Below are positions 2,404 through 37,757 of a stretch of 37,757 nt of DNA, one piece after another. The notes under the pieces were generated by a model, which searched no databases, was not told where the DNA came from, and saw nothing but the letters and a program-made list of their open reading frames with translations. The stretch spans positions 1 to 37,757 of IMG/VR virus record IMGVR_UViG_3300042317_000707; one strand, 5' to 3'. The DNA comes from a virus. The position numbers and the translations under genes are program-made. Positions within the stretch are counted from its first letter, which is position 1. Every line of letters starts with the position of its first letter.

Positions 2404-2679
2404 CTAGACCGTCGGCAGCAACGCCCGGTATTCAGCCTCGCTCACCTCATTCACCGCACCGCTCGCAAGCAGTTCCGGCAGCATCTCGGAGGGTAGGATG
2501 TATTGGCAATACTCGGCAGAGATTGCCAGATACACGCGGCCCTGTGTGTCGCTCGGCAGATCGGCCGCCAGCGGCAGCGTGCGGAGCGTCTTCGTCGCGT
2601 CGTTTGGGTAGCCGTATGCCGCGTCTAACTGGGCGCAGATGTCGGCGTATACGCTGGGCGACGAGCAGAAGTATCTCAC
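2404..2679 (-). CDS. Conserved phage protein, possible adhesin partner
   Basis: About 91 residues, beginning RYFCSSPSVYADICAQLD and including QGRVYLAIS. I know of similar small proteins next to phage tail-fibre or surface genes but know no function. I place the start at the GTG at 2679, which overlaps the LamG gene stop as GTGA. An upstream in-frame GTG at 2694 would add five residues. The 4-base overlap suggests translational coupling and a shared role, perhaps in assembly of the neighbour. Downstream (minus strand) comes an AGAGCGCA box and then the methyltransferase. Confidence 0.7.
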   Translation of the reverse strand: MRYFCSSPSVYADICAQLDAAYGYPNDATKTLRTLPLAADLPSDTQGRVYLAISAEYCQYILPSEMLPELLASGAVNEVSEAEYRALLPTV

Positions 2680-3386
2680 AGCGCCACGTTCCACTTCTTC
2701 GACAGGTAGGATCGCACCTTGTCTTGGTCGCTGGCAGACAACTCCGCGTTGTAATAGAGAAATTCTGCAATTCCGCCGACCAATCCGTAGATGCTGTCAA
2801 GGTTGAACAATGCGAGCGTGCGTGTATCCGTCGTGTCTGCTCCCGTGCCTGTCACATTTGTTGTGTTGTCTGTTCCTTGCGTGTTCCCAACAAAAATGCG
2901 GGCTAAGAATTTCGTGTAAACGCAGGTGAAGACTTTGTATCCGTCGCTTGCGGATATTGTGGCTTCATTTCCGCTGCCTCTGCGCGCCCGAAAACTTCCG
3001 CTGTCTCGGAGCAGGCTATGCACGCCATTAACTCCGCCGCGCTGGAAAAATCCTTGCTGATTGCCCGTGCTGCTGCCGACAACAAAAACAGTCTGCGGCA
3101 AGGCCGCCGCAAATGCTGCGGTTTTGAGAACGCGAGAACTGTCTTGCGCCACGACCACGTTCTTTCCGTTTAGTGCGGCGGTGGAGTATGAGGGTTGGTT
3201 GCCTGCCGTAGCCTGCGTGGCATTCCTACCGTTGCCACTCAGGTCGTCCCATTGCGACACATTGCCGGCGTTGAGCGTGATGCTGGAGCTTTTGCTCGCG
3301 TCAAACCACACAGCCAGCCCCGCGATGGTTCGTGGGTCAAAGCCAGACGAGGCTTTTGGCCGTAACAGGCGGGGCGACATGGGCAT
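2676..3386 (-). CDS. LamG/ConA-like lectin-fold surface protein
   Basis: 236 residues. Residues 20-55 carry the IAGLAVWFDAS...VSQWDDLSGNGRNA pattern that opens LamG/concanavalin-like jelly-roll domains in phage tail and adhesin proteins. The C-terminus (AEFLYYNAELSASDQDKV, then YLSKKWNV) matches the usual end of this fold. A carbohydrate-binding role on the virion, such as receptor recognition, is likely by family. It stands apart from the tail genes but is followed at once by a small coupled gene. Its DNA is visibly less GC-rich than the neighbours, as expected of an exchanged host-range gene. No signal peptide was seen. Confidence 0.8.
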   Translation of the reverse strand: MPMSPRLLRPKASSGFDPRTIAGLAVWFDASKSSSITLNAGNVSQWDDLSGNGRNATQATAGNQPSYSTAALNGKNVVVAQDSSRVLKTAAFAAALPQTVFVVGSSTGNQQGFFQRGGVNGVHSLLRDSGSFRARRGSGNEATISASDGYKVFTCVYTKFLARIFVGNTQGTDNTTNVTGTGADTTDTRTLALFNLDSIYGLVGGIAEFLYYNAELSASDQDKVRSYLSKKWNVAL

Positions 3387-3416: not shown

Positions 3417-3713
3417 TCAGTCGGTGTTCTTCAGCCAGTCGGTCACGTCGCTCGGCCTCGAGTAGCCCACGCGGCGGGCAACCTCGCGACCGTCTCGGAT
3501 GCGGATGATTGTCGGCACCATGTCAACCCGATGGCGTTCCATCGCCGCCTTGCCCTCGACCAGGCTGAGCGAGTGCGGCCGGTACATCTCGGGCTTGGCA
3601 AGCAAGTCCCGCTTCAGCTGGCGGCACGGCGGGCAACCCTCGCGGGTCACCACCAGGAGGTCGTCGGCGACCACGGGCAGGCAGAGCAGGAGCCAGGCGG
3701 CGAGCGTCCTCAT
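3417..3713 (-). CDS. Exported thioredoxin-like protein (CPPC)
   Basis: 98 residues. Residues 1-16 form a signal peptide (short basic start, then AAWLLLCLPVVA with likely cleavage before DDLL). The mature part has the redox motif CPPC at 27-30 and the cis-proline motif VPTI at 66-69, giving a minimal thioredoxin fold of about 80 residues. It probably acts on disulfides in the periplasm or at the envelope. Neighbouring exported proteins are Cys-rich (91-residue protein at 4320-4595; papain-like peptidase), so it may fold or reduce them. It overlaps the preceding gene by ATGA. Confidence 0.8.
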   Translation of the reverse strand: MRTLAAWLLLCLPVVADDLLVVTREGCPPCRQLKRDLLAKPEMYRPHSLSLVEGKAAMERHRVDMVPTIIRIRDGREVARRVGYSRPSDVTDWLKNTD

Positions 3714-3967
3714 TCCCGCACCTCGGCTTTCACCGGGACATGCCCGGCGCGAGGCTGCAGGGCGTACAGCAGGCGGGTCTGCTCGTTAACGGCGTTCGCG
3801 ATCTCTTTCTGCGTCTCGCCCAACTGGCGAACGAATGAGCGGTGTTCTTCCACGAGGGGCAGTAGCACGTCGTTCCTCAAGATCCACCCGGCCGCCAGAG
3901 CCACGAGCACCGGGAAGCCCCAACGCTCAAGCACCGTGGACAGCGTCGCCCGTACTTCGTCCGTCAT
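3710..3967 (-). CDS. Small membrane protein, holin-like candidate
   Basis: 85 residues from the ATG at 3967, which overlaps the previous stop (ATGA). A hydrophobic segment lies at about residues 15-37 (GFPVLVALAAGWILRNDVLL), followed by a charged, probably coiled-coil tail (EEHRSFVRQLGETQKEIANA). The pattern of one transmembrane span plus cytoplasmic coil is seen in some phage holins and other small phage membrane proteins. The position beside a probable peptidase supports a lysis role, but no family is recognised. A longer frame to 4120 exists but would overlap the neighbour deeply. Confidence 0.6.
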   Translation of the reverse strand: MTDEVRATLSTVLERWGFPVLVALAAGWILRNDVLLPLVEEHRSFVRQLGETQKEIANAVNEQTRLLYALQPRAGHVPVKAEVRE

Positions 3968-4323
3968 CGGTTGAACTCCCGCTGCCAGCCCGCCATCAGC
4001 ACCCGGTGGCTCGTCTCCGAGAACCACCATTTCACGAGGATCTGCACGATCGCCGAGACCACCGCACTCAAAACGATCGTCCACAAGAACCCGAACTCGG
4101 CATCGCTGTAGCCGCTGCATGCGTGGTACAGCCGCTTCACGTTGCCGCTGACCGCGAGCCCGTACACCTGCTGCTCACGCTCGTTGCGGCAGTGCACAAG
4201 GTTGTCAGGCTCCCACGTTTCGACCGTGAGCCGCACGAGGTCATCGACCTGCTTCCGCCCGGCGAGGTGCTTCCTCGGCCCGAGCCGCTTCCAGACGTGT
4301 TCCTGCAGCTGCTCGAAGTTCAT
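3964..4323 (-). CDS. Membrane-anchored protein, lysis/envelope module
   Basis: 119 residues from the ATG at 4323 (ATGA overlap with the gene before it). The N-terminal half is soluble and charged (MNFEQLQEHVWKRLGPRKHL). A strong transmembrane segment follows at about residues 77-100 (FGFLWTIVLSAVVSAIVQIL), then a short basic tail with KWWF. One C-terminal span recalls tail-anchored phage lysis or spanin-related proteins, but no family is recognised. It is coupled on both sides by 4-base overlaps. Confidence 0.65.
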   Translation of the reverse strand: MNFEQLQEHVWKRLGPRKHLAGRKQVDDLVRLTVETWEPDNLVHCRNEREQQVYGLAVSGNVKRLYHACSGYSDAEFGFLWTIVLSAVVSAIVQILVKWWFSETSHRVLMAGWQREFNR

Positions 4324-4595
4324 TCCTGTTCGCTCGCTCTCTTGCATCGACAGGTCGGCGGGCACGGGCACGGCGTCCGGTGACCGTCGCCATGGGTAAT
4401 CCACCCGTTCTCGCATTGGCCGCAGCATTCATCCGGCTTTGGCGTCGGGCTTGGTGCCGGGCCCTCGCGACGCAGGCGAACGATCTCGCGGGCTGTCTGG
4501 GCCGCCAGGTCGCCCTCCCACGGGGCGGGCGGAAGAACCGCCACGGTGCAGCCAACGCAGAACGACAGCAGCCAGACCCAGTTCGTGTGACGCAT
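4320..4595 (-). CDS. Cys-rich exported protein
   Basis: 91 residues. The N-terminus MRHTNWVWLLSFCVGCTVAV looks like a signal peptide or signal anchor. The Cys residues near 13 and 16 might serve as a lipobox, but the consensus is poor. The C-terminal third has a cluster CCGQCENGW...PCPCPP..CRC similar in spacing to DnaJ-type CxxCxGxG zinc knuckles. The region between is Pro-rich. The start at 4595 gives a TGATG junction with the peptidase gene, indicating coupling. Function unknown. A disulfide-rich or metal-binding envelope protein fits the neighbouring exported thioredoxin-like gene. Confidence 0.65.
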   Translation of the reverse strand: MRHTNWVWLLSFCVGCTVAVLPPAPWEGDLAAQTAREIVRLRREGPAPSPTPKPDECCGQCENGWITHGDGHRTPCPCPPTCRCKRASEQE

Positions 4596-5590
4596 CAGAA
4601 AATCCCCGTTGTCCAGTTCGGAAGCTTCTGTGCGGGCCAGCCGTTGAAGCCAGAGAACGCGATCATTTCGCGGTTCTTGAAGTCGGACCACTTCGACCAG
4701 AACGCACCCTCTGGAATGTCGATGTCGGTTCCGAGCACGCGGCGTCCGCCACCGTTCCACTTGTTCCAACTGTTCTGGACCATCACCAGCGGCTCGCCGT
4801 ACTTCTGTTTGATGATGTCGCGGTCATCCGCTCCAAGCACCGCGAGCGCATGGGCCCACCCGCCCTGTCTACGGCTCACGCCGTTCTCGTCTCTCGAGGA
4901 ACTCCAGCCCTCACCACCGCACGTCGTCAGAGCAAACCCATTCGCGAGCAGATCGCGGACTTGCTCCCACGTCGTGCAGCGTGTCGCCGTCCGCATCAAG
5001 TGCTTGCGGCCGTGAGCCGTGATGTTGTCTGGCGGGACAGGACTGCCCCACTTGCCAGCCAGGCGGCCGTTGTATTTCGTAAGGTCGAAGCCGAACTCCT
5101 CGTAGTTCTTGCGCGGCCACAGGCCGCTTTCCTCGCAAATAACTTTTGCCGAAGCACCGCAGTGCCACCCGTCGCCGTTGTGCCTGCGGTACCAATAAAC
5201 CGCTTCACTGCTGCAAATCACATCCTTGTATCCCTCGACCGGCATCTCTGGCTTGTCTTCAATCTCGCCCGTCACCTCGTCGGGTCGGCCTGCAACTATT
5301 TCTGCACACATGGTGCAAACGGCGGCCGTTCGAGAACTATGGCTGACGCAATCGCCACGACTTTGAGCAGCGCCGGGCAGGCAGCCGGGGAACAGTTTCT
5401 CCATGTAGAGCCACAGCGCCGTGAGCTTCCCGGCACCGGAGCCTTCAAGGCCACCGCTCGCAATCGCATCGGCGGCGTACGGATACAAGCCTTGCGACGA
5501 CACCCACGCCTCAAACTCGGCACGGTCCTCAGGCGTGCTCGTGCAGCCGACAAGCCCAGCCAGGTATTCAGCGAGCGGTTCCCAGGGCAT
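4595..5590 (-). CDS. Papain-like (C1-type) cysteine peptidase
   Basis: 331 residues. Three separated motifs match the papain clan: Q76SRGDC81 (oxyanion Gln and nucleophile Cys), GGWAHA with His247, and MVQNSWNKWNGG with Asn273, the equivalent of papain's NSWG..WG. The length is that of a papain core plus an N-terminal extension of about 70 residues. No signal peptide is visible, so export through a holin or action inside the cell or virion are the options. Gene order (membrane and exported proteins on both sides) suggests cell-envelope degradation at lysis, in place of a normal endolysin, none of which I found. Extra Cys residues are abundant. The family call is good; the biological role is inference. 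Confidence 0.8.
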   Translation of the reverse strand: MPWEPLAEYLAGLVGCTSTPEDRAEFEAWVSSQGLYPYAADAIASGGLEGSGAGKLTALWLYMEKLFPGCLPGAAQSRGDCVSHSSRTAAVCTMCAEIVAGRPDEVTGEIEDKPEMPVEGYKDVICSSEAVYWYRRHNGDGWHCGASAKVICEESGLWPRKNYEEFGFDLTKYNGRLAGKWGSPVPPDNITAHGRKHLMRTATRCTTWEQVRDLLANGFALTTCGGEGWSSSRDENGVSRRQGGWAHALAVLGADDRDIIKQKYGEPLVMVQNSWNKWNGGGRRVLGTDIDIPEGAFWSKWSDFKNREMIAFSGFNGWPAQKLPNWTTGIF

Positions 5591-5593
5591 GCG

Positions 5594-6058
5594 TCACCTT
5601 TGCAGAGCAGCCCAGCCGATCGCCTCGCACAAGTCGCCGAACCGCTGGCGACCGGCGGCATCGACCGCCTTTGACTCGAGGCCCATCGTCTCGACGAACG
5701 CTTTCTCGATGGCAGCCCCGAGTCCGGCGTACTTGCCTGCAGCGTTGCCGCCGAGCCTCGACCAGCCGATCGTGCTTGCGATCCTGGTGAACTCGCGGAG
5801 CGAACGCGTGTCGGCGAACAGCTTGTCGGCATCCGTGTCTTCTGCCACGACCTTGCCAGACCGCACGAACAGATCCGCGAGCAGGGCCCGATCGGCGGGC
5901 GACGCGCCACGCATCACGTCCACGACCGGCTGCACCGCGGCCCGAAGCGTCGTGCTTGGCGTGTCGATCGACGGGGCCACAGGAGCAGGCGACCGGGAGA
6001 CCGGAACGCCGAACGCAGCGACGTAGCCCAAGATGATCGCCAAGGCCCAGCGGTTCAT
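5594..6058 (-). CDS. Exported or membrane-anchored hypothetical protein
   Basis: 154 residues from the ATG at 6058. The N-terminus (MNRWALAIILGYVAAFGVPV) is a signal peptide or anchor, followed by a Pro-rich linker at about 23-35 and a helical, Ala-rich domain. No family is recognised. The longer frame to 6112 would overlap the preceding gene and is rejected. It lies 4 bases upstream of the peptidase gene and could be its exported partner, inhibitor or a spanin-like factor. This is inference from position only. Confidence 0.65.
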   Translation of the reverse strand: MNRWALAIILGYVAAFGVPVSRSPAPVAPSIDTPSTTLRAAVQPVVDVMRGASPADRALLADLFVRSGKVVAEDTDADKLFADTRSLREFTRIASTIGWSRLGGNAAGKYAGLGAAIEKAFVETMGLESKAVDAAGRQRFGDLCEAIGWAALQR

Positions 6059-6063
6059 CGCTG

Positions 6064-6330
6064 CTACTCCTTCGGGCTGGCGGTCAGCATCACGTTCAGG
6101 AGCTTCTCGCACAGATCGACGCCGTCTTCGCAGCCCTTGTGCCGCAGGCGGTTGGCGATCTCAAGCACCAGCCTCATGTCTTCGAGGGCGGCGTCGGCCG
6201 GGGGCGGCGTGACTCGCGAGAGGAGGGCGCGGGCTTTCCCCCAGGCACCCACCACCACGGGCGACGCCACGAGAGCAACTGCCGCCACGGCAGCGACGAC
6301 ACGTAGGGCAAGTTCAGCATCGAAGTTCAC
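6064..6330 (-). CDS. Small membrane protein
   Basis: 88 residues beginning with GTG in a GTGA overlap with the previous gene. A long hydrophobic stretch at residues 8-30 (LALRVVAAVAAVALVASPVVVGAW) is followed by a soluble helical tail with two Cys residues. It could be a holin or antiholin candidate given its place upstream of the peptidase gene, but no family is recognised. Confidence 0.65.
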   Translation of the reverse strand: MNFDAELALRVVAAVAAVALVASPVVVGAWGKARALLSRVTPPPADAALEDMRLVLEIANRLRHKGCEDGVDLCEKLLNVMLTASPKE

Positions 6331-6608
6331 TGCGGCACCTTGGCAAGGATGTAACGCACGAGCCGCTCGCCTTCCGGCGTCTTCAGAACGTCGCCCAGGA
6401 GCTTGACGACCTCGTCATCGACCGTCGTTTTGGAACGGCTCGCCAGCCATTCGCAGGCGTCGGAGACGATGATCCCCTTGCGGTACGGGTCGGGCTCGTT
6501 GAGCACCCGCTGGCCGTAGCTCACGAGTGGCATGAGCTGCTGAAAGAGAGCCAGCGTGTCCCACCAGCTGGCGTCGTACGCCCCGTACTCGTCGTGCTCG
6601 TCAGCCAT
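6327..6608 (-). CDS. Hypothetical acidic protein
   Basis: 93 residues from the ATG at 6608, chosen because AGGAG lies 7 bases upstream. The upstream TTG at 6632 has no such site. The N-terminus is acidic and aromatic (MADEHDEYGAYDASWWD), the rest helical. No membrane span and no recognised family. It is the first soluble member of the envelope module and is coupled by GTGA to the next gene. Confidence 0.65.
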   Translation of the reverse strand: MADEHDEYGAYDASWWDTLALFQQLMPLVSYGQRVLNEPDPYRKGIIVSDACEWLASRSKTTVDDEVVKLLGDVLKTPEGERLVRYILAKVPQ

Positions 6609-9794: not shown

Positions 9795-10043
9795 TCAAAC
9801 CAACGGGGCACGCTCGGACCGCCTCATGGCGTAGTGACGTTCGCGGCACTCGCGGGCTCGCTCGGCGATCTCCTCTGGCGTCGGGTCGTCCATCCGCCGC
9901 TCGGGCCTCGGGCGTATCGGGAGCTTCTGCTGGTACCGCAGCTGATACACCACCTGCCTGGAAACGCCGAGGGCTGCGGCGATGTCATCGACCGCAGCCC
10001 CGGCGTGCCACATGTCTGCGAGCAGCTTCTGACGTTCGGTCAT
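9795..10043 (-). CDS. HTH DNA-binding protein
   Basis: 82 residues, coupled to dnaN by ATGA. Residues 16-40 (AAVDDIAAALGVSRQVVYQL) form a clear helix-turn-helix. A basic linker and DPTPEEIAERARECRE follow, a motif common in small phage and host regulators. Likely a transcription regulator of the early operon; target sites unknown. Confidence 0.75.
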   Translation of the reverse strand: MTERQKLLADMWHAGAAVDDIAAALGVSRQVVYQLRYQQKLPIRPRPERRMDDPTPEEIAERARECRERHYAMRRSERAPLV

Positions 10044-11146
10044 TCCTGGGCAAGCGGCATGATGACTCCGGTGGCATCGTCACAACGGAGAATGACAGCA
10101 GACGAGGCGTCCACCGCTTCGATTTCTACTGGCACTGCCAAGTCGTCCAAGTTTCGCAGCCAGTCCACCACGAACCGAGGATCCATTTTCACGCTGCAAG
10201 CCTGGCCGAACTGCTCGAGCGGGCAGGTCACGCTCGACTCACCGGCCTCGGCGGCGCGGCCCGTCAGGTGAATACCGTCTGAGGTGAACACAAACTGCAC
10301 GCCCAGGCTCTGCTCGCTTGTGCAGATCGCAGCCTGACGGGTCGCCGCAAGAAGTTCCGACGCCGACACGAGCGACGATTTCGCATCGCGCGTGGGCAAC
10401 GTGTCGCGCCACCGAGGAAACCGCCCGTCGGTCAGGCGAGCCGTGACCGTCGTGCCGTCGCATTCCGCGATGACCTCGTTGCCTGTCGCCTCGAGTTGCA
10501 CCGCACCTTCCGAGTGAGCCGCCACGCGAGACATGACGGCAATGGCACGAGCCGGGATCAGCACGCTGCGATCGTCCACCGCTTGGTCCACCTCGGCTTC
10601 GTAGACGCTCAACCTGCGGCCGTCCGTGCCGACAAAGTGCACGGTGCCTTCCTTCACTTCGACCAACACAGCCCCGAGGGCGTAGCGGCTGGACTCGTTG
10701 TCCGTCGCATAGGCAACCGACTTGACCGCCCGGCAGAACTGGTCCGCCGGCAGCCGACAGACCGGCGTGGCGTCCGCAGGCTCCCACCGCGGGAACTCGC
10801 CAGCCGCCTCGGTCGGCAGCTTCCACGAGCCACGGCCGACGCTCACCGTGCACGACGTGCCGTCGGGGGCAAGCGTCACGTCGCCGTCGGTGCCAGTCGC
10901 CAGGATCGCCTGCAGCCGCGCCGCCGGGAGCAGCAAGGCGTCGTCATGAAAGTCCAGACTCGTCTCTATCTGGAGTTCTAGGTCGCTGGCGGTGAGGCTG
11001 CCAGAGCCGAGCAAAACGTTCATCAAGATCGGCTTGCTCGCCTTGCCCGGCACCGCCGGGCTTACCGTCGCCAGCGCCGCCCGCAGGGCGGACAGGTCGA
11101 GGTGTACGCCAGAACTTTTTCTCTTCTTCGTAAGGGTCGCGGTCAT
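10040..11146 (-). CDS. dnaN: DNA polymerase III beta subunit (sliding clamp)
   Basis: 368 residues, the full length of bacterial beta clamps. Three repeated clamp domains are visible: the N-terminal L-x-x-A-L-x-x-V pattern with ASDLELQIE at 53-61, FVGTDGRRLSVYE at 171-183 in domain 2 (the ATDGHRL signature) with GRFPRW at 241-246, and a third domain ending with GVIMPL. The C-terminal VMP-like peptide is the usual end. The clamp encircles DNA and tethers polymerase. AAAGGA lies 8 bases before the ATG. No phage polymerase, helicase or loader is present, so it probably redirects the host replisome or replaces the host clamp. Its first 203 bases are overlapped by another reading frame. Confidence 0.93.
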   Translation of the reverse strand: MTATLTKKRKSSGVHLDLSALRAALATVSPAVPGKASKPILMNVLLGSGSLTASDLELQIETSLDFHDDALLLPAARLQAILATGTDGDVTLAPDGTSCTVSVGRGSWKLPTEAAGEFPRWEPADATPVCRLPADQFCRAVKSVAYATDNESSRYALGAVLVEVKEGTVHFVGTDGRRLSVYEAEVDQAVDDRSVLIPARAIAVMSRVAAHSEGAVQLEATGNEVIAECDGTTVTARLTDGRFPRWRDTLPTRDAKSSLVSASELLAATRQAAICTSEQSLGVQFVFTSDGIHLTGRAAEAGESSVTCPLEQFGQACSVKMDPRFVVDWLRNLDDLAVPVEIEAVDASSAVILRCDDATGVIMPLAQE

Positions 11147-13291: not shown

Positions 13292-14116
13292 CTAGTCAAT
13301 CAACTCCGGTGCTCTCGGCGTGTTCGCTCTGATCTGCGACCAGTCGAGATAGTTCGTCTCTGCAAGCCCTGGTGTCCTATGCCCGAGGTGCAGCTTTGCC
13401 TTGCCCGGCTCGCGGATCTCAATGTGTGTGGCCCCGCTGCGGCGCAGCCACTTGGACGAGCCGCCGACGCCGACGCTGTCGAGCAGCTGCCGGAAGAGCC
13501 GAGCGGCTTGCCGCTTGCGCACCACCCAGCCGAGGATCCGCCCGTCGGGTGACTGCGCCGCAAGCTCGCGAATCGCCTCAAGGCACGACCGGCTCAACAG
13601 CCGCGTGATGGCGTCGCCCGTTTTCGACTGAACCCACTGCACGGCGTCGCCGTTCAGGTTGTCCACCCGCATCTGCCACAGATCGCCGTGCCGGCTGCCG
13701 CATTCGTAGCCAAGCAGGATCCAGCCGCGGAGGAAGACGCCGATGCTGGTGCCCCGCCTGGTGGTGCGGCTGTCCCACTGCCGGGTCGCGTCGATGACCG
13801 CCCGCAGTTCGGCGACCGTCCACGCTCGCGTCGGCTCGCGCCGGGCCTTAATCTTCAGCACACCCTTGATCGGCTTGTCGAGGTAGTCCCGCTCATACGA
13901 CCACTTGGCGAGCGTCAAAAGGACGCCGCGCTCAGCCTTCACCGTGGTCGATTTCCGCTCCTGGAGCCGCAGCCGCAGGAACTTGTTGACCTCCTCGGCG
14001 GTGATGTGTTTCACCCGTGCCGCGATCCGGCGGACGTTGGCCGCATGCGTCGGCGTGACCACGCGTTCGGCGAGGTAGCGTTCGGCGATCTCTGGGAAGG
14101 TCGGCGTTCTTGCCAT
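13292..14116 (-). CDS. Tyrosine recombinase, minus-strand copy
   Basis: 274 residues from the ATG at 14116, which has AGGAG 6 bases upstream; the longer frame to 14290 is rejected. Core-binding domain about 1-90, catalytic domain 95-274. Visible residues: Arg142 (CGSRHGDL), Lys165 (SKTGD), a box II reading SKWLRRSGATH in which the usual His of HxxR appears as Lys222 with Arg225, His246 (LGHRT) and Tyr256 (ETNYLDW). It differs in sequence and strand from the integrase at 16529. It may be a resolvase/integrase with altered chemistry or a degenerate copy. Confidence 0.85.
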   Translation of the reverse strand: MARTPTFPEIAERYLAERVVTPTHAANVRRIAARVKHITAEEVNKFLRLRLQERKSTTVKAERGVLLTLAKWSYERDYLDKPIKGVLKIKARREPTRAWTVAELRAVIDATRQWDSRTTRRGTSIGVFLRGWILLGYECGSRHGDLWQMRVDNLNGDAVQWVQSKTGDAITRLLSRSCLEAIRELAAQSPDGRILGWVVRKRQAARLFRQLLDSVGVGGSSKWLRRSGATHIEIREPGKAKLHLGHRTPGLAETNYLDWSQIRANTPRAPELID

Positions 14117-14144
14117 CGTCATCTCCTGGTCAGACCCGCCGCAG

Positions 14145-14169
14145 CCGGCCCGGCTCATCACCGGACCGG
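14145..14169 (-). terminator. GC-rich hairpin upstream of minus-strand recombinase
   Basis: On the minus strand CCGGTCCGG and CCGGGCCGG pair over 9 positions (one G-U wobble) with a 7-base loop. It lies between the 52-residue peptide gene and the recombinase. There is no T-run, so it is a possible attenuator or processing site rather than a classical terminator. Confidence 0.4.
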
Positions 14170-14189
14170 CGCGGCAGGCTCTCACGGGG

Positions 14190-14348
14190 TTATCGGGTCG
14201 GCCTCGGGCGTGGTCGCTTGGGCTTGCAGACACCACCAGGGCAGCCGCCGCGCTCCATCGCGGCGACCGCCGGAAGCTCCTCGGTGTCATGGCTCGCGAA
14301 CGAGACCGGGGAACACCAGAGGCACAGAATCAAAATCAACGCTCTCAT
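14190..14348 (-). CDS. Small exported Cys-containing peptide (52 residues)
   Basis: A 52-residue frame with ATG at 14348 preceded by AAAGGA at 7 bases, the same site type used by several genes here. Residues 1-18 (MRALILILCLWCSPVSFA) are a good signal peptide. The mature peptide is acidic then Cys/Gly (GGCPGGVC) and ends in a basic Arg-Pro tail (KPKRPRPRPTR). No family recognised. The clean start site and signal sequence argue for a real gene despite its size. Confidence 0.6.
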   Translation of the reverse strand: MRALILILCLWCSPVSFASHDTEELPAVAAMERGGCPGGVCKPKRPRPRPTR

Positions 14349-16528: not shown

Positions 16529-17422
16529 ATGGAACTCGAAACGCTGTTTCTCGCGGAGTATTCACCGCTCCGCAGGCTCGGCCAGAAGTCGATTAACTGC
16601 TATCAAGTGACGCTGCGGCACTTCGCCAGACACTTGGCACAGGTGCCGGGCAGGGAGCCGGGACCGCCGAAAACCTCGGATTTAACCGACTTAACGGTTG
16701 CGAGGTTCTTAGCGATTCGCGAGCGCGAGACGTGCCGGGCGACGGCGGCCCGCGATCGGGTCCAGCTTCTGGCCCTGTGGCGGTACGCCAGCCGGAAACG
16801 CTACGTAGAGCAGTGGCCCGAGGTGCCCATCATCAGAGCCCCTACGCGGACGCCTACGGGCTACACGGCGGCCGAGGTGTCCTTGCTGATCCGCGAGGCC
16901 CGACGCATGCCAGGGACGATCTCAGGCGTCCCTGCCGGGGTCTGGTGGTCATCTCTGCTGCTCGTGCTCTGGGAATCCGGGGAACGCATCACGGCCACCC
17001 TGGCGACCCGCTGGCGGGAAGTGGATCTTGTGGCCCAGCGGATGACGTTTCGGGCTGAAACCCGCAAAAATCAGACCCGCGATATCACCCGGCAGATTTC
17101 GCCCGCCACGGCCGAACTGCTGAACGGGCGTATTCGGATGTCGGGCGAGTTGGTCTGGCCGTGGGATCGCTCAGCGTGCCTCCTGTGGAAGCGTTTGCAG
17201 GGGATATGCAAGCGGGCGAACGTCCAGTACCGTGGGTTCCACGGCATTAGGCGGGCGGCAGTGTCTTACGTAGAGGCCGCGTGCCCTGGTGCCGGCCAAC
17301 GGCTCGCCGACCACTCCAGCCCGCAAATCACGATAAAGAGCTACCTCGACCCGCGCATTGTTCCGCAGGGTCCAGATGCAACGGATTTGCTGCCAAAGCT
17401 GGATTTGTCGGACGCGTCGTAG
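16529..17422 (+). CDS. int: Tyrosine integrase
   Basis: 297 residues, the only clear plus-strand gene; AGGAG lies 7 bases before the ATG. An N-terminal SAM-like core-binding domain (about 1-95) and a catalytic domain with the full set: Arg153 (ESGERI), Lys180, His238-Gly-Ile-Arg241 (FHGIRR), His262 (LADHSS) and Tyr272 (KSYLDP). It catalyses site-specific strand exchange, presumably phage integration and excision. It is divergent from the excisionase-like gene and converges on a strong terminator at 17481-17513. Opposite orientation to all other genes suggests separate control. Confidence 0.93.
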   Translation: MELETLFLAEYSPLRRLGQKSINCYQVTLRHFARHLAQVPGREPGPPKTSDLTDLTVARFLAIRERETCRATAARDRVQLLALWRYASRKRYVEQWPEVPIIRAPTRTPTGYTAAEVSLLIREARRMPGTISGVPAGVWWSSLLLVLWESGERITATLATRWREVDLVAQRMTFRAETRKNQTRDITRQISPATAELLNGRIRMSGELVWPWDRSACLLWKRLQGICKRANVQYRGFHGIRRAAVSYVEAACPGAGQRLADHSSPQITIKSYLDPRIVPQGPDATDLLPKLDLSDAS

Positions 17423-31909: not shown

Positions 31910-32074
31910 TGACCGTCGGCGAATCTCGCACGACTTCACGACGTGCTTTGCCGTCTTGCGGCACGATGGGCACCGCAGATACCGCGTACAAACGCCGCCA
32001 CGTTCCACTGATGCGTACACGCCAAGGCGAGCACAGCGGCAGTGCTGGCAAACGTCACCCGACCTTGTAGCCAT
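31898..32074 (-). CDS. Small zinc-ribbon protein (58 residues)
   Basis: A 58-residue frame from the ATG at 32074, overlapping the protease end by 20 bases. The protein has VCQHCRC near residues 8-14 and CTRYLRCPSCRKTAK at 29-43, a Cys-x2-Cys ... Cys-x5-Cys-x2-Cys zinc ribbon, and a basic tail. The ribosome-binding site is poor, but the Cys pattern is too regular to be chance. Tiny zinc ribbons with R-Y-L/R-R-C-P-x-C ends occur in phage head operons. Function unknown. Confidence 0.65.
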   Translation of the reverse strand: MATRSGDVCQHCRCARLGVYASVERGGVCTRYLRCPSCRKTAKHVVKSCEIRRRSLPN

Positions 32075-32681
32075 GCTGTCGGAGAAACCTGCGGATGCTT
32101 TTCTCGGTCTTCGCGTCCCGTAAAAGGGCCGGCAGCTTCAGCGCCGGTCGGTGCGATTGTAGAAACCGCTCATAGGAGCGAACCGCCACGCCGGTGGTGG
32201 CTTGCTCATAGGCCGGCGTCAGCACTGGGGAAACGTCATAGACGCCTTGCACCGAGACCACGTTGCGCAGGGCCGTGCCATCCTCGTCTTTGTCCCATGA
32301 CTCCTCGCCGATCACGAACGCGAAGCTTGAGCCCCAAACGTCCCCTCGCGAAATCAGCGTAGTCAGATCACGCCCCAGCTGCGTGTCTGGCACTTCCACC
32401 GAATACCGCATCCCCTCTTCGTCGGTGTCTACGGCGAGCGTGCCGCTGCGAGTCGAGCCCAGTACAAAGTTGGGGTCGTGATTCCAGAGGGCCACGACAG
32501 GATGCGACTGTTCCTTCAGCGCCCGCGTAAACGCACCCGGCAGGATTCGCTCACGAAACGTGCCCAGCAACGTGCTGCGGACGTTGTATTTTGCGGCGTA
32601 CCCGCTGATGTACGCCTTGCCCTCGTTTCGGGTCTCCATCGTCAGCGGAAGCGATACGCAGCGGCGCTCAAGGTTGTCCAT
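32055..32681 (-). CDS. Prohead protease (HK97 gp4/U35 family)
   Basis: 208 residues. Recognised from YISGYAAKYNV, the ERILPGAFTRAL motif, LWNHDPNFVLG (His68) and WGSSFAF (Ser118 or Ser119), with DVSPVLTPAY near 155: the His-Ser prohead protease arrangement. It cleaves capsid delta domains and itself. Directly upstream of the capsid genes, as usual. Confidence 0.92.
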   Translation of the reverse strand: MDNLERRCVSLPLTMETRNEGKAYISGYAAKYNVRSTLLGTFRERILPGAFTRALKEQSHPVVALWNHDPNFVLGSTRSGTLAVDTDEEGMRYSVEVPDTQLGRDLTTLISRGDVWGSSFAFVIGEESWDKDEDGTALRNVVSVQGVYDVSPVLTPAYEQATTGVAVRSYERFLQSHRPALKLPALLRDAKTEKSIRRFLRQHGYKVG

Positions 32682-32684
32682 GGC

Positions 32685-34046
32685 TTACTTCCTCTTCCGG
32701 GTGGAGGGCTTGCGGGCTCGAGGTGTTGCAGGCTTCACGGGCGTGTCATTCGCTGGCGGCTGGCCAGCCAGCAAGGCATCGGTGTACGACTGCGGCTGAT
32801 TGTCGGCTGGGGCTGGCTCGCCGGCATTGCCGGCGGCGGCCGTGGCTGCGATGCCCTGCATGGTGGTCAGGTTCATCTGCATGTACCGCTGGTCCCCATC
32901 CGGTCCAATGGGGTTCATGTTGAGAACCTCGCGGCATTCGTTGATTGAGTAGATGCCGGTATTCAGCATGGTCTGCAGCCAGTTCGCCTGTGCCGCCAGG
33001 TCGCCACGCAAAAGTCCGCGGGTGTCGAACTCGGCGAAGTACACGTCGTCACGCACGACCAGGTCACGCGTGATCGCCGACTCCCAGCGGCGGAACCATG
33101 GCATCAGCGTCTGCTGCACGAGGTCGATGGCGGCCTGCTCCTGCGACGCATAGCCGACTTTCGTCTTGTCCTGCACGTATGACGGATCGACCCGGTAGGC
33201 CCGGCAGATCTCAATGACTTGGTACTGCCGAGTCTCCAAAAACTGGCTGGCCTCGTTGGTGCTCTGCACGTCCTTCCAGTGCACGCCCTGGGGCAACACG
33301 GCCGTTCTATGAGCCCGGTCAGCGCCCCTGTGCATCCGCTCAAACTGCTCACGGAGCCGCTCGGCAGTCTCAACCGTGATCGGGTTGTCCGATTCCATGA
33401 GGCCCGACAGTCGGCAGGCGTTGCCGAAGTACGCACCGCCGTGCGTCTCTAGGGCTTGGGCCAGGGCGATGGCGTCCCGGCTCAGCGTGATCGGCAGCAT
33501 GCCCTGAACGCCGTCGTTGCTCAGCCACCGCAGGTGGAAAATCTGATCCTGCCGGTAGATCGTCTCGCGGCCGTTCTGCTCGCGGTAGCAGTACCGCAGG
33601 CTGCCATCCTCAAGCTGCTCGACCTTCATGCGGCTCGGGTGCAGCGGCCAGAGTTCGCTGACCGCACCCGCCGCGCCGCTTCGAATCTCGGCGTAGGCGT
33701 TGCCGTACAGCAGGCAGTGAGCCGTGAGCATCTCGCGAAACTCAAACGATGTGAGCCAGCCGTTGGGCTGCTGGTTCAGCAGGCGGTACAGCGGCAAGCC
33801 GCGGGCCCGTTCCTTGCCGCCCTCGGGCAGCCGCTGGTACAGATGCAACGGCACCGTCGCGACGTTCTCCGCGATAAGCCGCACGCACGCCAGCACCGTC
33901 GAGCACTGCAGCGCCGTCTCGGGCGTGATCCGAACGCCAGCCGGCCCGCGGGCGGGCGACTCGTTCCAGCCGTCGTCGTACCCGCCGCCTCGCAGGTCAA
34001 TGATGCGGTAGCCCTTCTCGGGCGTCTCTTCAGCGTGCGCGATCAT
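32685..34046 (-). CDS. Portal protein (HK97 family)
   Basis: 453 residues. The pattern TVLACVRLIAENVATVPLHLY, LPLYRLLNQQPNGWLTSFEF and the C-terminal Ala-rich low-complexity region define HK97-type portals. The dodecameric portal forms the DNA channel. ATGA overlap with the large terminase. The C-terminal 70 residues are Pro/Ala/Lys-rich and disordered. Confidence 0.93.
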   Translation of the reverse strand: MIAHAEETPEKGYRIIDLRGGGYDDGWNESPARGPAGVRITPETALQCSTVLACVRLIAENVATVPLHLYQRLPEGGKERARGLPLYRLLNQQPNGWLTSFEFREMLTAHCLLYGNAYAEIRSGAAGAVSELWPLHPSRMKVEQLEDGSLRYCYREQNGRETIYRQDQIFHLRWLSNDGVQGMLPITLSRDAIALAQALETHGGAYFGNACRLSGLMESDNPITVETAERLREQFERMHRGADRAHRTAVLPQGVHWKDVQSTNEASQFLETRQYQVIEICRAYRVDPSYVQDKTKVGYASQEQAAIDLVQQTLMPWFRRWESAITRDLVVRDDVYFAEFDTRGLLRGDLAAQANWLQTMLNTGIYSINECREVLNMNPIGPDGDQRYMQMNLTTMQGIAATAAAGNAGEPAPADNQPQSYTDALLAGQPPANDTPVKPATPRARKPSTRKRK

Positions 34047-35620
34047 ACTGCGATGATGTCCCAGGATTGTTCAGGCGTCGGCGTTGTGGCAACTTGCCAA
34101 AGGCCGATAGCCATAACCAGGCTTACGATGCCGTCAATTCGTTCTGTGGACTTGGCCTTGCTTGGTTTGATGTTGCCAGCTGCGGAATCGGTTTGAATCG
34201 CCACGTTGTTGGCCTGCCACGCCAGCACCGGATGCCCGCCGTGGCGGAGCTTGCCGGCCACCACCCAGTTTTCCAGTTGCTTGGATGGTGCCGACAAAGA
34301 GCCGTAGCCCTGTCGGAAATTTTGCATGGCAAGCCCGTCTCCTTGCAGTTGCTGCCCCAGCTGGGCGCTGTTCCATGGGTCCAGCCCGATGCCTCGAATG
34401 CGGTACTTTGACGCCAAAGCGTTGATGTCCCGACGGACGTGCTCAAAGTCGGTGACGTTGCCATCCGTCATCGTCAGGTGCCCCTGCCGCTGCCACGTCA
34501 GGTATGGCACTTTGTCCCGACGCTCCCGCTGGTGGGCGTTGTCCGACGGGATCCAAAAATGCGGCTCTATCCAAAACGTGCCGTCATCCAATGGAAACAG
34601 CAGCACCAGCGCGGTCGTATCAAACGTGGTCGCCAAGTCGAGGCCAGCCCAGCACTCGCGCCCGTTGAGGTCCACAGGGCATGCCCCGTTGCCCTGTGCC
34701 CAGTGATCCATCCGCAGCCACCTTTGGTCCTGCTCCGTCCACTGGTTCAGATACAGCTGCCGGAAGGTGTTTTCGTATGTGGGCATCTCCACCGCTCGGG
34801 CGCACTCGCTCCGCAGGAAGTCAAGCTTCACCGACACGCCCAGGTTCGGATTGGCTTTCGCCCATGTTTTTTCGCTTTTCCAGTCGGCAGCGGCATCGGC
34901 CGCAAAGATCATCGGCAGGAAAGTGGCATCCTTCACGGCACCGTCCCGCACCGCCTCGGCGTACTTCCAGATTTCCCAACAGACGCTTTTGCGGTCGTAG
35001 CCTGCCGTGGTCAGCGCGACCGTGAGCGGGTTGCGCCGCGCCCCCTGGCTCGACAGCATGACTTCCCACATCTCACGGTTGCTTACGTGCAGCTCGTCAA
35101 AAATGACAGCATGGGCCGAGAGCCCGTGCTGAATACCTGCCTCGGCGGACAGTGCCTTGTACGTCGCGTGCGTGGACTCCCGTACGATCGCGTTACGGTA
35201 CACCTTCAGCTTCTGAGACAGCGTCGGCGACTGCTCGACCGCGATCTTTGCGGTATCAAACACCAGCCTTGCCTGATCCCTTGATGCCGCGCATGAATAG
35301 ACTTCGCAGCCAGGCTCGGGCTCGAGCAGGCACCGAAGAGCGATGCCAGCGGCCAAGGTGCTCTTCCCATTTTTGCGAGGCAACGCAAGCAGGCTGGTCC
35401 GCACTTTGCGGCGGCCGTTCTCCTCGGCGAACAACGCCCGGATGTAGTCGCGCTGCCACGCCTCAAGCAAGAACGGTTTGCCGCCCAACTCGCCCTTGGC
35501 GTGCGTCAGGTGCTTTTGAAAAAACACCACGGCCAAGCATGACGAGCAATCGCCGCACGGCTGTTCAGCCGAACATCTTGCGGTCTTCTTCGTCTTCGAC
35601 GGCTTCCGGCTTTTCGACAT
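34043..35620 (-). CDS. terL: Terminase large subunit
   Basis: 525 residues. Walker A LPRKNGKST (80-88), Walker B AVIFDELHV (Asp175-Glu176), and nuclease acidic residues near WAGLDLATTFD (Asp328, Asp334): ATPase plus RNase H-like nuclease that cuts and pumps DNA. The N-terminus has a Cys cluster CSAEQPCGDCSSC (Cys16, 22, 25, 28) that could bind a metal, unusual for the family. The gene overlaps the small subunit gene by 56 bases. Confidence 0.95.
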   Translation of the reverse strand: MSKSRKPSKTKKTARCSAEQPCGDCSSCLAVVFFQKHLTHAKGELGGKPFLLEAWQRDYIRALFAEENGRRKVRTSLLALPRKNGKSTLAAGIALRCLLEPEPGCEVYSCAASRDQARLVFDTAKIAVEQSPTLSQKLKVYRNAIVRESTHATYKALSAEAGIQHGLSAHAVIFDELHVSNREMWEVMLSSQGARRNPLTVALTTAGYDRKSVCWEIWKYAEAVRDGAVKDATFLPMIFAADAAADWKSEKTWAKANPNLGVSVKLDFLRSECARAVEMPTYENTFRQLYLNQWTEQDQRWLRMDHWAQGNGACPVDLNGRECWAGLDLATTFDTTALVLLFPLDDGTFWIEPHFWIPSDNAHQRERRDKVPYLTWQRQGHLTMTDGNVTDFEHVRRDINALASKYRIRGIGLDPWNSAQLGQQLQGDGLAMQNFRQGYGSLSAPSKQLENWVVAGKLRHGGHPVLAWQANNVAIQTDSAAGNIKPSKAKSTERIDGIVSLVMAIGLWQVATTPTPEQSWDIIAV

Positions 35621-36038
35621 GCAATGAAGCCCTAGCCGACGGATTTAATCCAAAGTCCTGTTCCAGCTGCCGCAGCTGCTGGGCCAGCTTGTGGGCAATG
35701 GACACCTCGGGGCGCTGGGCGATGTACTTGACTTCTCCCTTGTCGTTCAGGATCGGGTACGTGTCGCCTTCCTTTTTCAGTTTGGCACGCGTGGCAAGCC
35801 ACCATTCGTATGTGTCGCAGTAACGCGCCAGCGCCTCAATGTCGGCTTGCGTCATTACTCGCACGGCCTGAAGCATCGGCAGCAGTTCACGCCAGCGATC
35901 AGCGGCCATGTCGCCGAGATGGCTAGGCATGCTCACGCCACCAACTGGGGGCTGCGGCTCGTCGTCCCTGTGAACCCGCAGCGTCCCGCGGGCCGCACGA
36001 ATTGCCGTCGGCGTTTTTGGCGGACCTCTCTTGCCCAT
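35565..36038 (-). CDS. terS: Terminase small subunit (P27 family)
   Basis: 157 residues. MGKRGPPKTPTAIRAARGT at the start is the P27-family signature, followed by a helical DNA-binding and oligomerisation core (ADIEALARYCDTYEWW) and a C-terminal FGLNPSARASLHV. It recognises phage DNA for packaging. AGGGGG precedes the ATG. Confidence 0.9.
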   Translation of the reverse strand: MGKRGPPKTPTAIRAARGTLRVHRDDEPQPPVGGVSMPSHLGDMAADRWRELLPMLQAVRVMTQADIEALARYCDTYEWWLATRAKLKKEGDTYPILNDKGEVKYIAQRPEVSIAHKLAQQLRQLEQDFGLNPSARASLHVEKPEAVEDEEDRKMFG

Positions 36039-36119
36039 GACCTACCCCCTAATGATTACCTGTCGCCGTGTACGCAGATGCAAGCCGGGCGGTTTCTTAG
36101 ACGTTTTGTGCCGCAGTTT

Positions 36120-36878: not shown

Positions 36879-36968
36879 TCATCGGAAGTAAATAAGGAAC
36901 CACGCCAATGTGGTTGCCAGCACCGTTGCTAGGACAGACACCACAGCCATGAAACGGTTCAGGCTCAT
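36879..36968 (-). CDS. 29-residue membrane peptide
   Basis: A short frame from the ATG at 36968, with GGGAGG 5 bases upstream and an ATGA overlap with the CAP-domain gene. The peptide is MSLNRFMAVVSVLATVLATT plus a hydrophobic end (LAWFLIYFR), one membrane span. Both the site and the overlap argue for a real gene. Function unknown; a holin-like or anchoring partner of the CAP protein is possible. Confidence 0.6.
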   Translation of the reverse strand: MSLNRFMAVVSVLATVLATTLAWFLIYFR

Positions 36969-37330
36969 GGCAACCTCCCAAAACACGCGCACCAGTAGGG
37001 CCCGTTCCCGGCATCGCAGACGCCGACGCCGATGACGTTCGACGAGCCGCTCATGATGTTCCACCGATGCCCAGGCGACCACAGCCAAGCAGACATGACT
37101 GCCTCTTCGGTCTGCTGGTTCCAAGCGATGTTCTCGGCCGCCCTTGAGTAGCCCAGCCGCATGATGTCACGCATGGACGAGTGCACCATGCGGTTCCGTT
37201 TCGCCATTGTGTCGGCCCACGCTTGGGCGTATCCCATCAGCTTGGCGTCCACAGACAGCGGCTTCAGCGTCCACCACGATTTCGACCGTGCGTCGTTGTG
37301 CAGCTTGATCAGCTTCTGCAGGTCATACAT
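36965..37330 (-). CDS. CAP/SCP-domain (YkwD-like) protein
   Basis: 121 residues. LHNDARSKSWW, NRMVHSSM (His50), AENIAW (Glu66), a second Glu near 76 and SPGHRWNIMSG (His88) give the CAP tetrad, and VGVCDAGNGPYWCACFG is the usual end. No signal peptide is visible. CAP proteins bind lipids or act on cell surfaces, and their occurrence in phages is uncommon. It is coupled to a membrane peptide and overlaps the HNH gene by 8 bases. Confidence 0.85.
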   Translation of the reverse strand: MYDLQKLIKLHNDARSKSWWTLKPLSVDAKLMGYAQAWADTMAKRNRMVHSSMRDIMRLGYSRAAENIAWNQQTEEAVMSAWLWSPGHRWNIMSGSSNVIGVGVCDAGNGPYWCACFGRLP

Positions 37331-37664
37331 GGTCGCCCTGCTCCCGTACCTCGCTCGTCAGGATGACCTGGGCCAGGCGGCGCACGTCGGGCCGCCACTT
37401 GCGATCGTCGCAGGCGTGGCCCAACCACCAGTGACAGTCGCGGGGCGGGCCACACAGCGTGATGAGGTTTAGCGGGTCCAACTCCAACTCGGGACGGCCT
37501 GTGCGTTTGGCGTGGCCCACTGGAATGACGTGATGGACTTCGAGGCGTTCCGTTGCGCCGCACGCCGCGCAGGTCGGGAAACGCTCAATGTGGCGGCGAC
37601 GGACGGCGGGCCAGCGAGAATCGCGGCCAAATGAGTCAAACGATTTGCGAAGCCAGCCGAACAT
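37323..37664 (-). CDS. HNH endonuclease (junction gene)
   Basis: 113 residues, complete in the right-hand repeat; its first 34 bases also appear at 1-34. TCAACGATERLEVHHVIPVG, then NLITLCGPPRDCHW form the HNH core with Cys pairs. Role: homing-type nuclease or packaging accessory. No clear ribosome-binding site. Confidence 0.85.
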   Translation of the reverse strand: MFGWLRKSFDSFGRDSRWPAVRRRHIERFPTCAACGATERLEVHHVIPVGHAKRTGRPELELDPLNLITLCGPPRDCHWWLGHACDDRKWRPDVRRLAQVILTSEVREQGDHV

Positions 37665-37757
37665 GCTGGCAACGTATCGGCGGCGTCAAGCGTCCGTCTC
37701 TCGCCGCTATAGGGTCATACCCGTTTGGGTATAGCCGTCTGTTCGCTCAAGAGCGCA
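37631..37757. repeat. Terminal direct repeat, right copy
   Basis: Exact copy of bases 1-127. Joining the two copies makes the HNH gene and its upstream spacer continuous with the DUF551 gene, giving a circle of about 37,630 bp. Confidence 0.95.

Follow-up and report, generated by a model that had tools for sequence, protein, structure and literature searches.

We propose that a 331-residue cysteine peptidase serves as the endolysin in a lysis module that is specific to Planctomycetota phages, a reading to which we assign a probability of roughly 0.6. The peptidase is encoded in the window, by which we mean the whole stretch of 37,757 nucleotides analysed (positions 1 to 37,757 of the IMG/VR virus record IMGVR_UViG_3300042317_000707). 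An endolysin is the simplest reading because the peptidase is the one hydrolase of its operon, is surrounded by membrane and exported proteins, occupies the position of a lysis module and belongs to a genome in which no lysin was recognised.

A papain-fold peptidase outside Pfam Peptidase_C1

The preliminary description of this DNA had placed Q76, C81, H247 and N273 of the peptidase in papain order, and the residues stand at exactly those places. Over 67 non-redundant rows of the family, W245, H247, N273, S274 and W275 are kept throughout, and Q76, D80, C81 and H84 are invariant except in the truncated member L037 and the paralogue L066. The motifs are a nearly invariant QxxGDCVSH, WxH around the histidine and NSW around the asparagine. 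Such invariance across 67 rows argues that the triad is no chance match. C144 and C224 occur as a pair in 56 rows and are jointly missing from 9; in rows that are related and thus non-independent, this co-occurrence hints at the pattern expected for a disulfide in an oxidising compartment.

When the window peptidase and 50 relatives were scanned with Pfam and PHROGs, no named family was matched. The window protein gave no match to PF00112 (Peptidase_C1), and the best value among the 50 relatives (E 0.059) did not reach the curated cut-off. A profile searched against PDB sequences listed papain-family chains alone, weakly (best E 0.05) and aligned at the histidine and NSWG.

Structure prediction and comparison with C1 peptidases, which the preliminary description had proposed as a check, gave a papain fold, with Z scores of 16–21 for xylellain, cathepsins and papain. 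The AF2 model built with 50 relatives reached a pLDDT of 92.1 and a pTM of 0.91 (an earlier model with 8 close relatives, pLDDT 53, was discarded). Its top Foldseek match was xylellain (E 2e-9), and VIA-align superposed it on xylellain (3OIS) with Z 20.8 and an rmsd of 2.8 over 229 residues, followed by pro-cathepsins, Der p 1 and pro-papain (Z 17–19) and the surface-layer-associated protease Cwp84 (4CI7; Z 17.0). Neither the CHAP amidase nor the unrelated fold that had been named as the contrary outcome was found: CHAP and NlpC/P60 gave no Pfam match to the window protein or its 50 relatives and were absent from the structural matches listed. By residue order and modelled fold, the protein is a predicted peptidase of the papain-like cysteine peptidases (clan CA, C1-like). 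Since the PF00112 cut-off was not reached, we conclude from fold and motif that it represents a papain-like family of its own, outside Pfam Peptidase_C1.

With xylellain and the C1A papain and cathepsin enzymes, the window peptidase shares the papain fold along most of its length, the Q-C-H-N(SW) order and an N-terminal extension before the catalytic domain. Unlike them, it is phage-borne with its own operon, has no signal peptide, carries the QxxGDCVSH motif and is at most 18% identical. Cwp84 of Clostridioides is a surface-layer-associated peptidase that likewise has a papain fold, but it is an enzyme of the bacterial surface, carries a lectin-like domain and is not phage-borne.

A paralogue of 517–592 residues was seen in phages of 100–230 kb, a few kilobases from the active peptidase (L066:10219-11991, L064:10286-11836, and L067, L069, L070, L072 and L073). 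Its active-site GDC reads like SGT (Cys to Thr), the histidine and asparagine remain, and a Cys-rich insertion is present; it reads like a pseudo-peptidase or a Thr enzyme.

A membrane and export operon at the lysis position of a complete genome

An exact 127-bp direct terminal repeat (1–127 and 37631–37757) shows that the window holds an entire genome, circularly closed and about 37.6 kb long, so the missing endolysin is no effect of truncation. No lysin was found by PHROGs among the 30 window proteins. Amidase_2, Phage_lysozyme, SLT, CHAP and M15_3 gave 0 matches in the window and 47 relatives, and M23 gave one weak partial match below the cut-off; the controls for all six families were found. 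These 48 phage records (about 3.5 Mb, twelve of them longer than 100 kb) include many that are mutually related or incomplete and do not count as 48 independent cases. GH19 had no match in the searched phages either, but its control was silent, which makes this negative uninformative. The earlier statement that the genome holds no normal endolysin is thus borne out for PHROGs and six Pfam families with working controls, and no clear endolysin appeared elsewhere in the genome; lysins outside these six families (GH19, GH108, NlpC/P60, Amidase_3 or unknown families) could be present. A CAP-domain protein on the minus strand (36965–37330; PF00188, E 1.9e-15, without signal peptide) was rejected as a lysin, being common to a single related contig, L002.

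The exported and membrane neighbours claimed for the peptidase are present, and most genes of the operon overlap by 1–4 bases. Their order on the minus strand is gA, gC, gB, peptidase, gD, gE, gF and thioredoxin (Table 1).

Table 1. The peptidase operon and the packaging end of the window.
Feature	Position	Strand	Description
gA	6327..6608	minus	small soluble protein, operon head; 21 loci
gC	6064..6330	minus	small, N-terminal membrane span; about 10 loci; hydropathy 2.48; holin-like candidate
gB	5594..6058	minus	N-terminal membrane segment or signal, then a helical-looking domain of about 110 aa (hydropathy)
Peptidase ORF	4595..5590	minus	331 aa, proposed endolysin; Q76/C81/H247/N273
gD	4320..4595	minus	exported Cys-rich protein, DnaJ-type CxxCxGxG; lipobox in many relatives
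gE	3964..4323	minus	one membrane span near the C terminus; about 20–22 loci; hydropathy 2.4
gF	3710..3967	minus	N-terminal span and charged tail; 23 loci; holin- or spanin-like candidate
Thioredoxin-like, CPPC	3417..3713	minus	exported; phrog_22, E 3.3e-4
Small and large terminase subunits	34043..36038	minus	small, phrog_83, E 3.9e-32; large, by homology
Probable packaging end, cos-like	36080..36081		homologous start of many related contigs

The near-universal partner of the peptidase is gB, which lies 4 bp upstream of it. A gB homologue occurs at 64 non-redundant loci; in 46 of the 56 clusters with enough sequence it is the gene immediately before the peptidase. In several other planctomycete prophages its place is taken by a longer lipoprotein that contains a PKD-like part and looks similar in its C-terminal part. 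On the downstream side, a gD-type CxxCxGxG protein recurs in phages that otherwise share little; the DnaJ cysteine-rich domain (PF00684) was matched weakly in relative L009 (E 0.003, below the cut-off). The last gene product combines a thioredoxin-like domain profile with a CxxC. Exported thioredoxin-like proteins were found at 14 loci, at most of these near the peptidase, and relatives lie downstream of it in other phages and prophages; in L188 and L189, gD and the thioredoxin appear as a single fused protein.

Neither Pfam nor PHROGs recognised a holin or spanin in the window module, and such names were rejected for gF and gD, for which library matches were weak or absent. In several planctomycete copies the gene directly up- or downstream of the peptidase encodes a 2-TM or TM-plus-coil protein, and the libraries gave no holin name to these either.

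In phage lambda, the lysis genes lie near the packaging end. The peptidase operon takes a comparable place in the window. Many contigs related through their large terminase subunit (TerL) start at the base that corresponds to 36080, some 40 bp ahead of the gene for the small terminase subunit and beside TGCGTAC, which points to a probable cos end shared by these phages. Counted from that end, the terminase genes come first, followed by head, tail, integration and replication genes, and the peptidase operon lies near the far end; in relatives, membrane genes and the peptidase operon lie upstream of the terminase. In L002, whose peptidase is 98% identical, the peptidase region is joined to genes from the other end of the window, as the circular map requires. 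Among the remaining genes, two on opposite strands (16529–17422, plus, and 13292–14290, minus) read by eye like tyrosine recombinases, and one (10040–11146, minus) reads like a DnaN-type sliding clamp and is kept in relatives (9 loci).

Each of the 18 TerL-related contigs extending to the locus has a family member, and none of them has a classical lysin in its place; their TerL is about 84% identical, and most of their peptidases are distant from the window's. As a further observation, L086-L165 have a TerL 83–100% identical to the window's, and most of the peptidases linked to it score as distant relatives. Because TerL is close and the peptidases are distant, the module at the lysis position was probably exchanged in place between otherwise similar phages. 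Of the conserved lysis-gene neighbourhood that the preliminary description had proposed to check for, a membrane and export operon at the lysis position was found, also in unrelated planctomycete phages.

Distribution of the family in phages and planctomycetes

At least 86 loci in IMG/VR encode the peptidase family; 80 were kept, and these are 28–98% identical. Genome contigs added four more, two of them in planctomycete MAGs. A tblastn search with three family members against INPHARED (50,697 deposited phage records) gave no match. The family was then found in 12 of 391 further Planctomycetota genomes, with many copies on chromosome-sized contigs, and in none of 394 Bacteroidota and 385 Cyanobacteria genomes (0/779, two centre MAGs left out; Fisher p 1.7e-6 for Planctomycetota against the other two phyla). 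Flavobacteriaceae and Synechococcaceae were rejected as hosts: each was represented by a single MAG contig (L084 and L085), probably mis-binned, against 0 of the 779 others. Next to several planctomycete copies lie apparent terminase, portal or tail genes. This enrichment in Planctomycetota over the other two phyla, together with the phage-gene neighbours of the copies, makes planctomycetes the most likely hosts of window-type phages.

One planctomycete genome (G372) contains a separate contig of 37,010 bases (G372:C2; L195/L196) that is a phage genome with the peptidase and a homologous terminase and portal, and that is possibly an extrachromosomal prophage; the 5.4-Mb chromosome of the same genome carries a second family member. 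In another side observation, the planctomycete MAGs G048 and G049 gave no Peptidase_M23 match above the cut-off, whereas the Bacteroidota and Cyanobacteria MAGs in the same search did.

SAR endolysins, such as Lyz of phage P1, are typically glycosidases. Like them, 6 of the 13 planctomycete copies carry a membrane anchor at the N terminus, a hydrophobic stretch that follows basic residues and would put the peptidase domain beyond the cytoplasm, and a thiol/disulfide activation step is proposed for SAR endolysins and the present family alike. Unlike SAR endolysins, the window protein has no such anchor, and none was found in the viral set.

Proposed lysis mechanism, precedents and alternatives

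In the proposed mechanism, the window-type peptidase, having no export signal, would accumulate in the cytoplasm and would get to the envelope once one or more of gC, gE and gF act as holin. There it would cut peptide bonds that hold the wall, either in peptidoglycan stem peptides or in wall or S-layer proteins. Exported gB may work directly with the peptidase, by docking, activation or restraint. The CxxCxGxG protein and the thioredoxin would keep the active-site cysteine reduced once it has left the cytoplasm, break disulfides in wall proteins, or both, so that the peptidase is possibly activated by exported thiol proteins.

The pseudomurein endoisopeptidases PeiW and PeiP of Methanothermobacter (pro)phages carry pseudomurein-binding repeats. 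These enzymes (PMC4592898) and the mycobacteriophage lysin LysA N5 (PMC3314691) are precedents, so that a cysteine peptidase as phage lysin is not as wholly new as the earlier claim had it; what stands of that claim is the combination, since our literature search found no C1-like peptidase of planctomycete phages that stands alone and is accompanied by an exported partner and thiol proteins, just as it found no description of phage exit from planctomycetes. LysA N5 (C39-like) is a cysteine peptidase of the papain superfamily that takes part in phage lysis, as proposed for the present protein, but it is one domain of a modular peptidoglycan hydrolase with wall-binding parts, whereas the window peptidase is stand-alone, has no recognised wall-binding or glycan-cutting domain and comes with exported partners. 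PeiW and PeiP, set beside the window peptidase by description alone, are virus-encoded, thiol-dependent cysteine peptidases of the kind proposed here; they differ in having archaeal hosts and in cutting an isopeptide bond of pseudomurein. They lyse an unusual wall and require reducing agents (PMC4592898); the thiol proteins of the operon would suit an enzyme whose cysteine has to stay reduced after export. CHAP lysins are another papain-superfamily peptidase type in phage lysis (PMC10318531).

The substrate may be peptidoglycan peptides or proteins, and the protein-rich envelope of the preliminary description is one candidate target: the nearest folds cut proteins, yet planctomycetes have peptidoglycan, which is of the DAP type and lysozyme-sensitive (PMC4432640). 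Lysozyme dissolves this peptidoglycan, and a Phage_lysozyme match is encoded in 5 of 382 planctomycete genomes. An enzyme that cuts glycan would thus be effective in these bacteria, which counts against the proposed reading. In the most specific form of the proposal, the sole envelope-degrading enzyme would be a protein-cleaving papain-type peptidase, activated after release by the exported CxxCxGxG/thioredoxin pair and the helical partner, and its target would be a protein needed for planctomycete integrity; we regard this form as tentative and rather doubtful.

A narrower version of the endolysin reading, overlapping with it, takes the enzyme for an ordinary peptidoglycan endopeptidase in a papain-type fold, like LysA N5 or C39-like domains, with the thiol genes as passengers. 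CHAP, NlpC/P60 and LysA N5 of the papain superfamily do cut cell-wall peptides (PMC10318531, PMC3314691), the peptidoglycan of planctomycetes is DAP-type (PMC4432640), and thioredoxin-like genes lie at just 14 loci. On the other hand, the structures most similar to the model belong to C1 enzymes that cleave proteins, and the CxxCxGxG protein turns up downstream of the peptidase in phages of very different kinds and appears fused to the thioredoxin in L188 and L189. This version is possible, if somewhat unlikely.

The peptidase could also serve the envelope without lysis, by modifying surface proteins in the infected cell or lysogen (receptor removal or superinfection exclusion); the exported helpers would then form a surface-remodelling kit, and an unrecognised enzyme would carry out lysis. 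Most partner proteins are indeed exported or membrane-anchored and the family is found in prophages. Accessory (moron) genes lie beside cos in lambda, which counts for such a role. However, presence in 18 of 18 TerL-related contigs reaching the locus and in phages of 100–230 kb is unusual for accessory genes, the same genomes have no other recognisable lysin, and the window enzyme, having no export signal, would need a holin-like release. We therefore consider a non-lytic role unlikely.

Least probable is a virion or maturation factor, packaged to cut a host surface protein at entry or processing a structural protein: a LamG-like gene of a virion structural family (2676–3386; phrog_10356, E 2.5e-23) does lie downstream of the thioredoxin and the operon adjoins the packaging genes, but the peptidase is outside the tail module, its closest partners are exported or membrane rather than virion proteins, and a separate gene between portal and capsid, kept in relatives (32055–32681), reads like the prohead protease.

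If the lysis reading is true, the operon represents a new type of phage exit system, and a thiol-dependent protease would join the mechanisms by which phage infections are known to end. An operon that replaces the usual lysins would mark planctomycete viruses in metagenomes, and the peptidase would offer a tool enzyme for lysis of planctomycetes. The operon would also hint at what holds the planctomycete envelope together.
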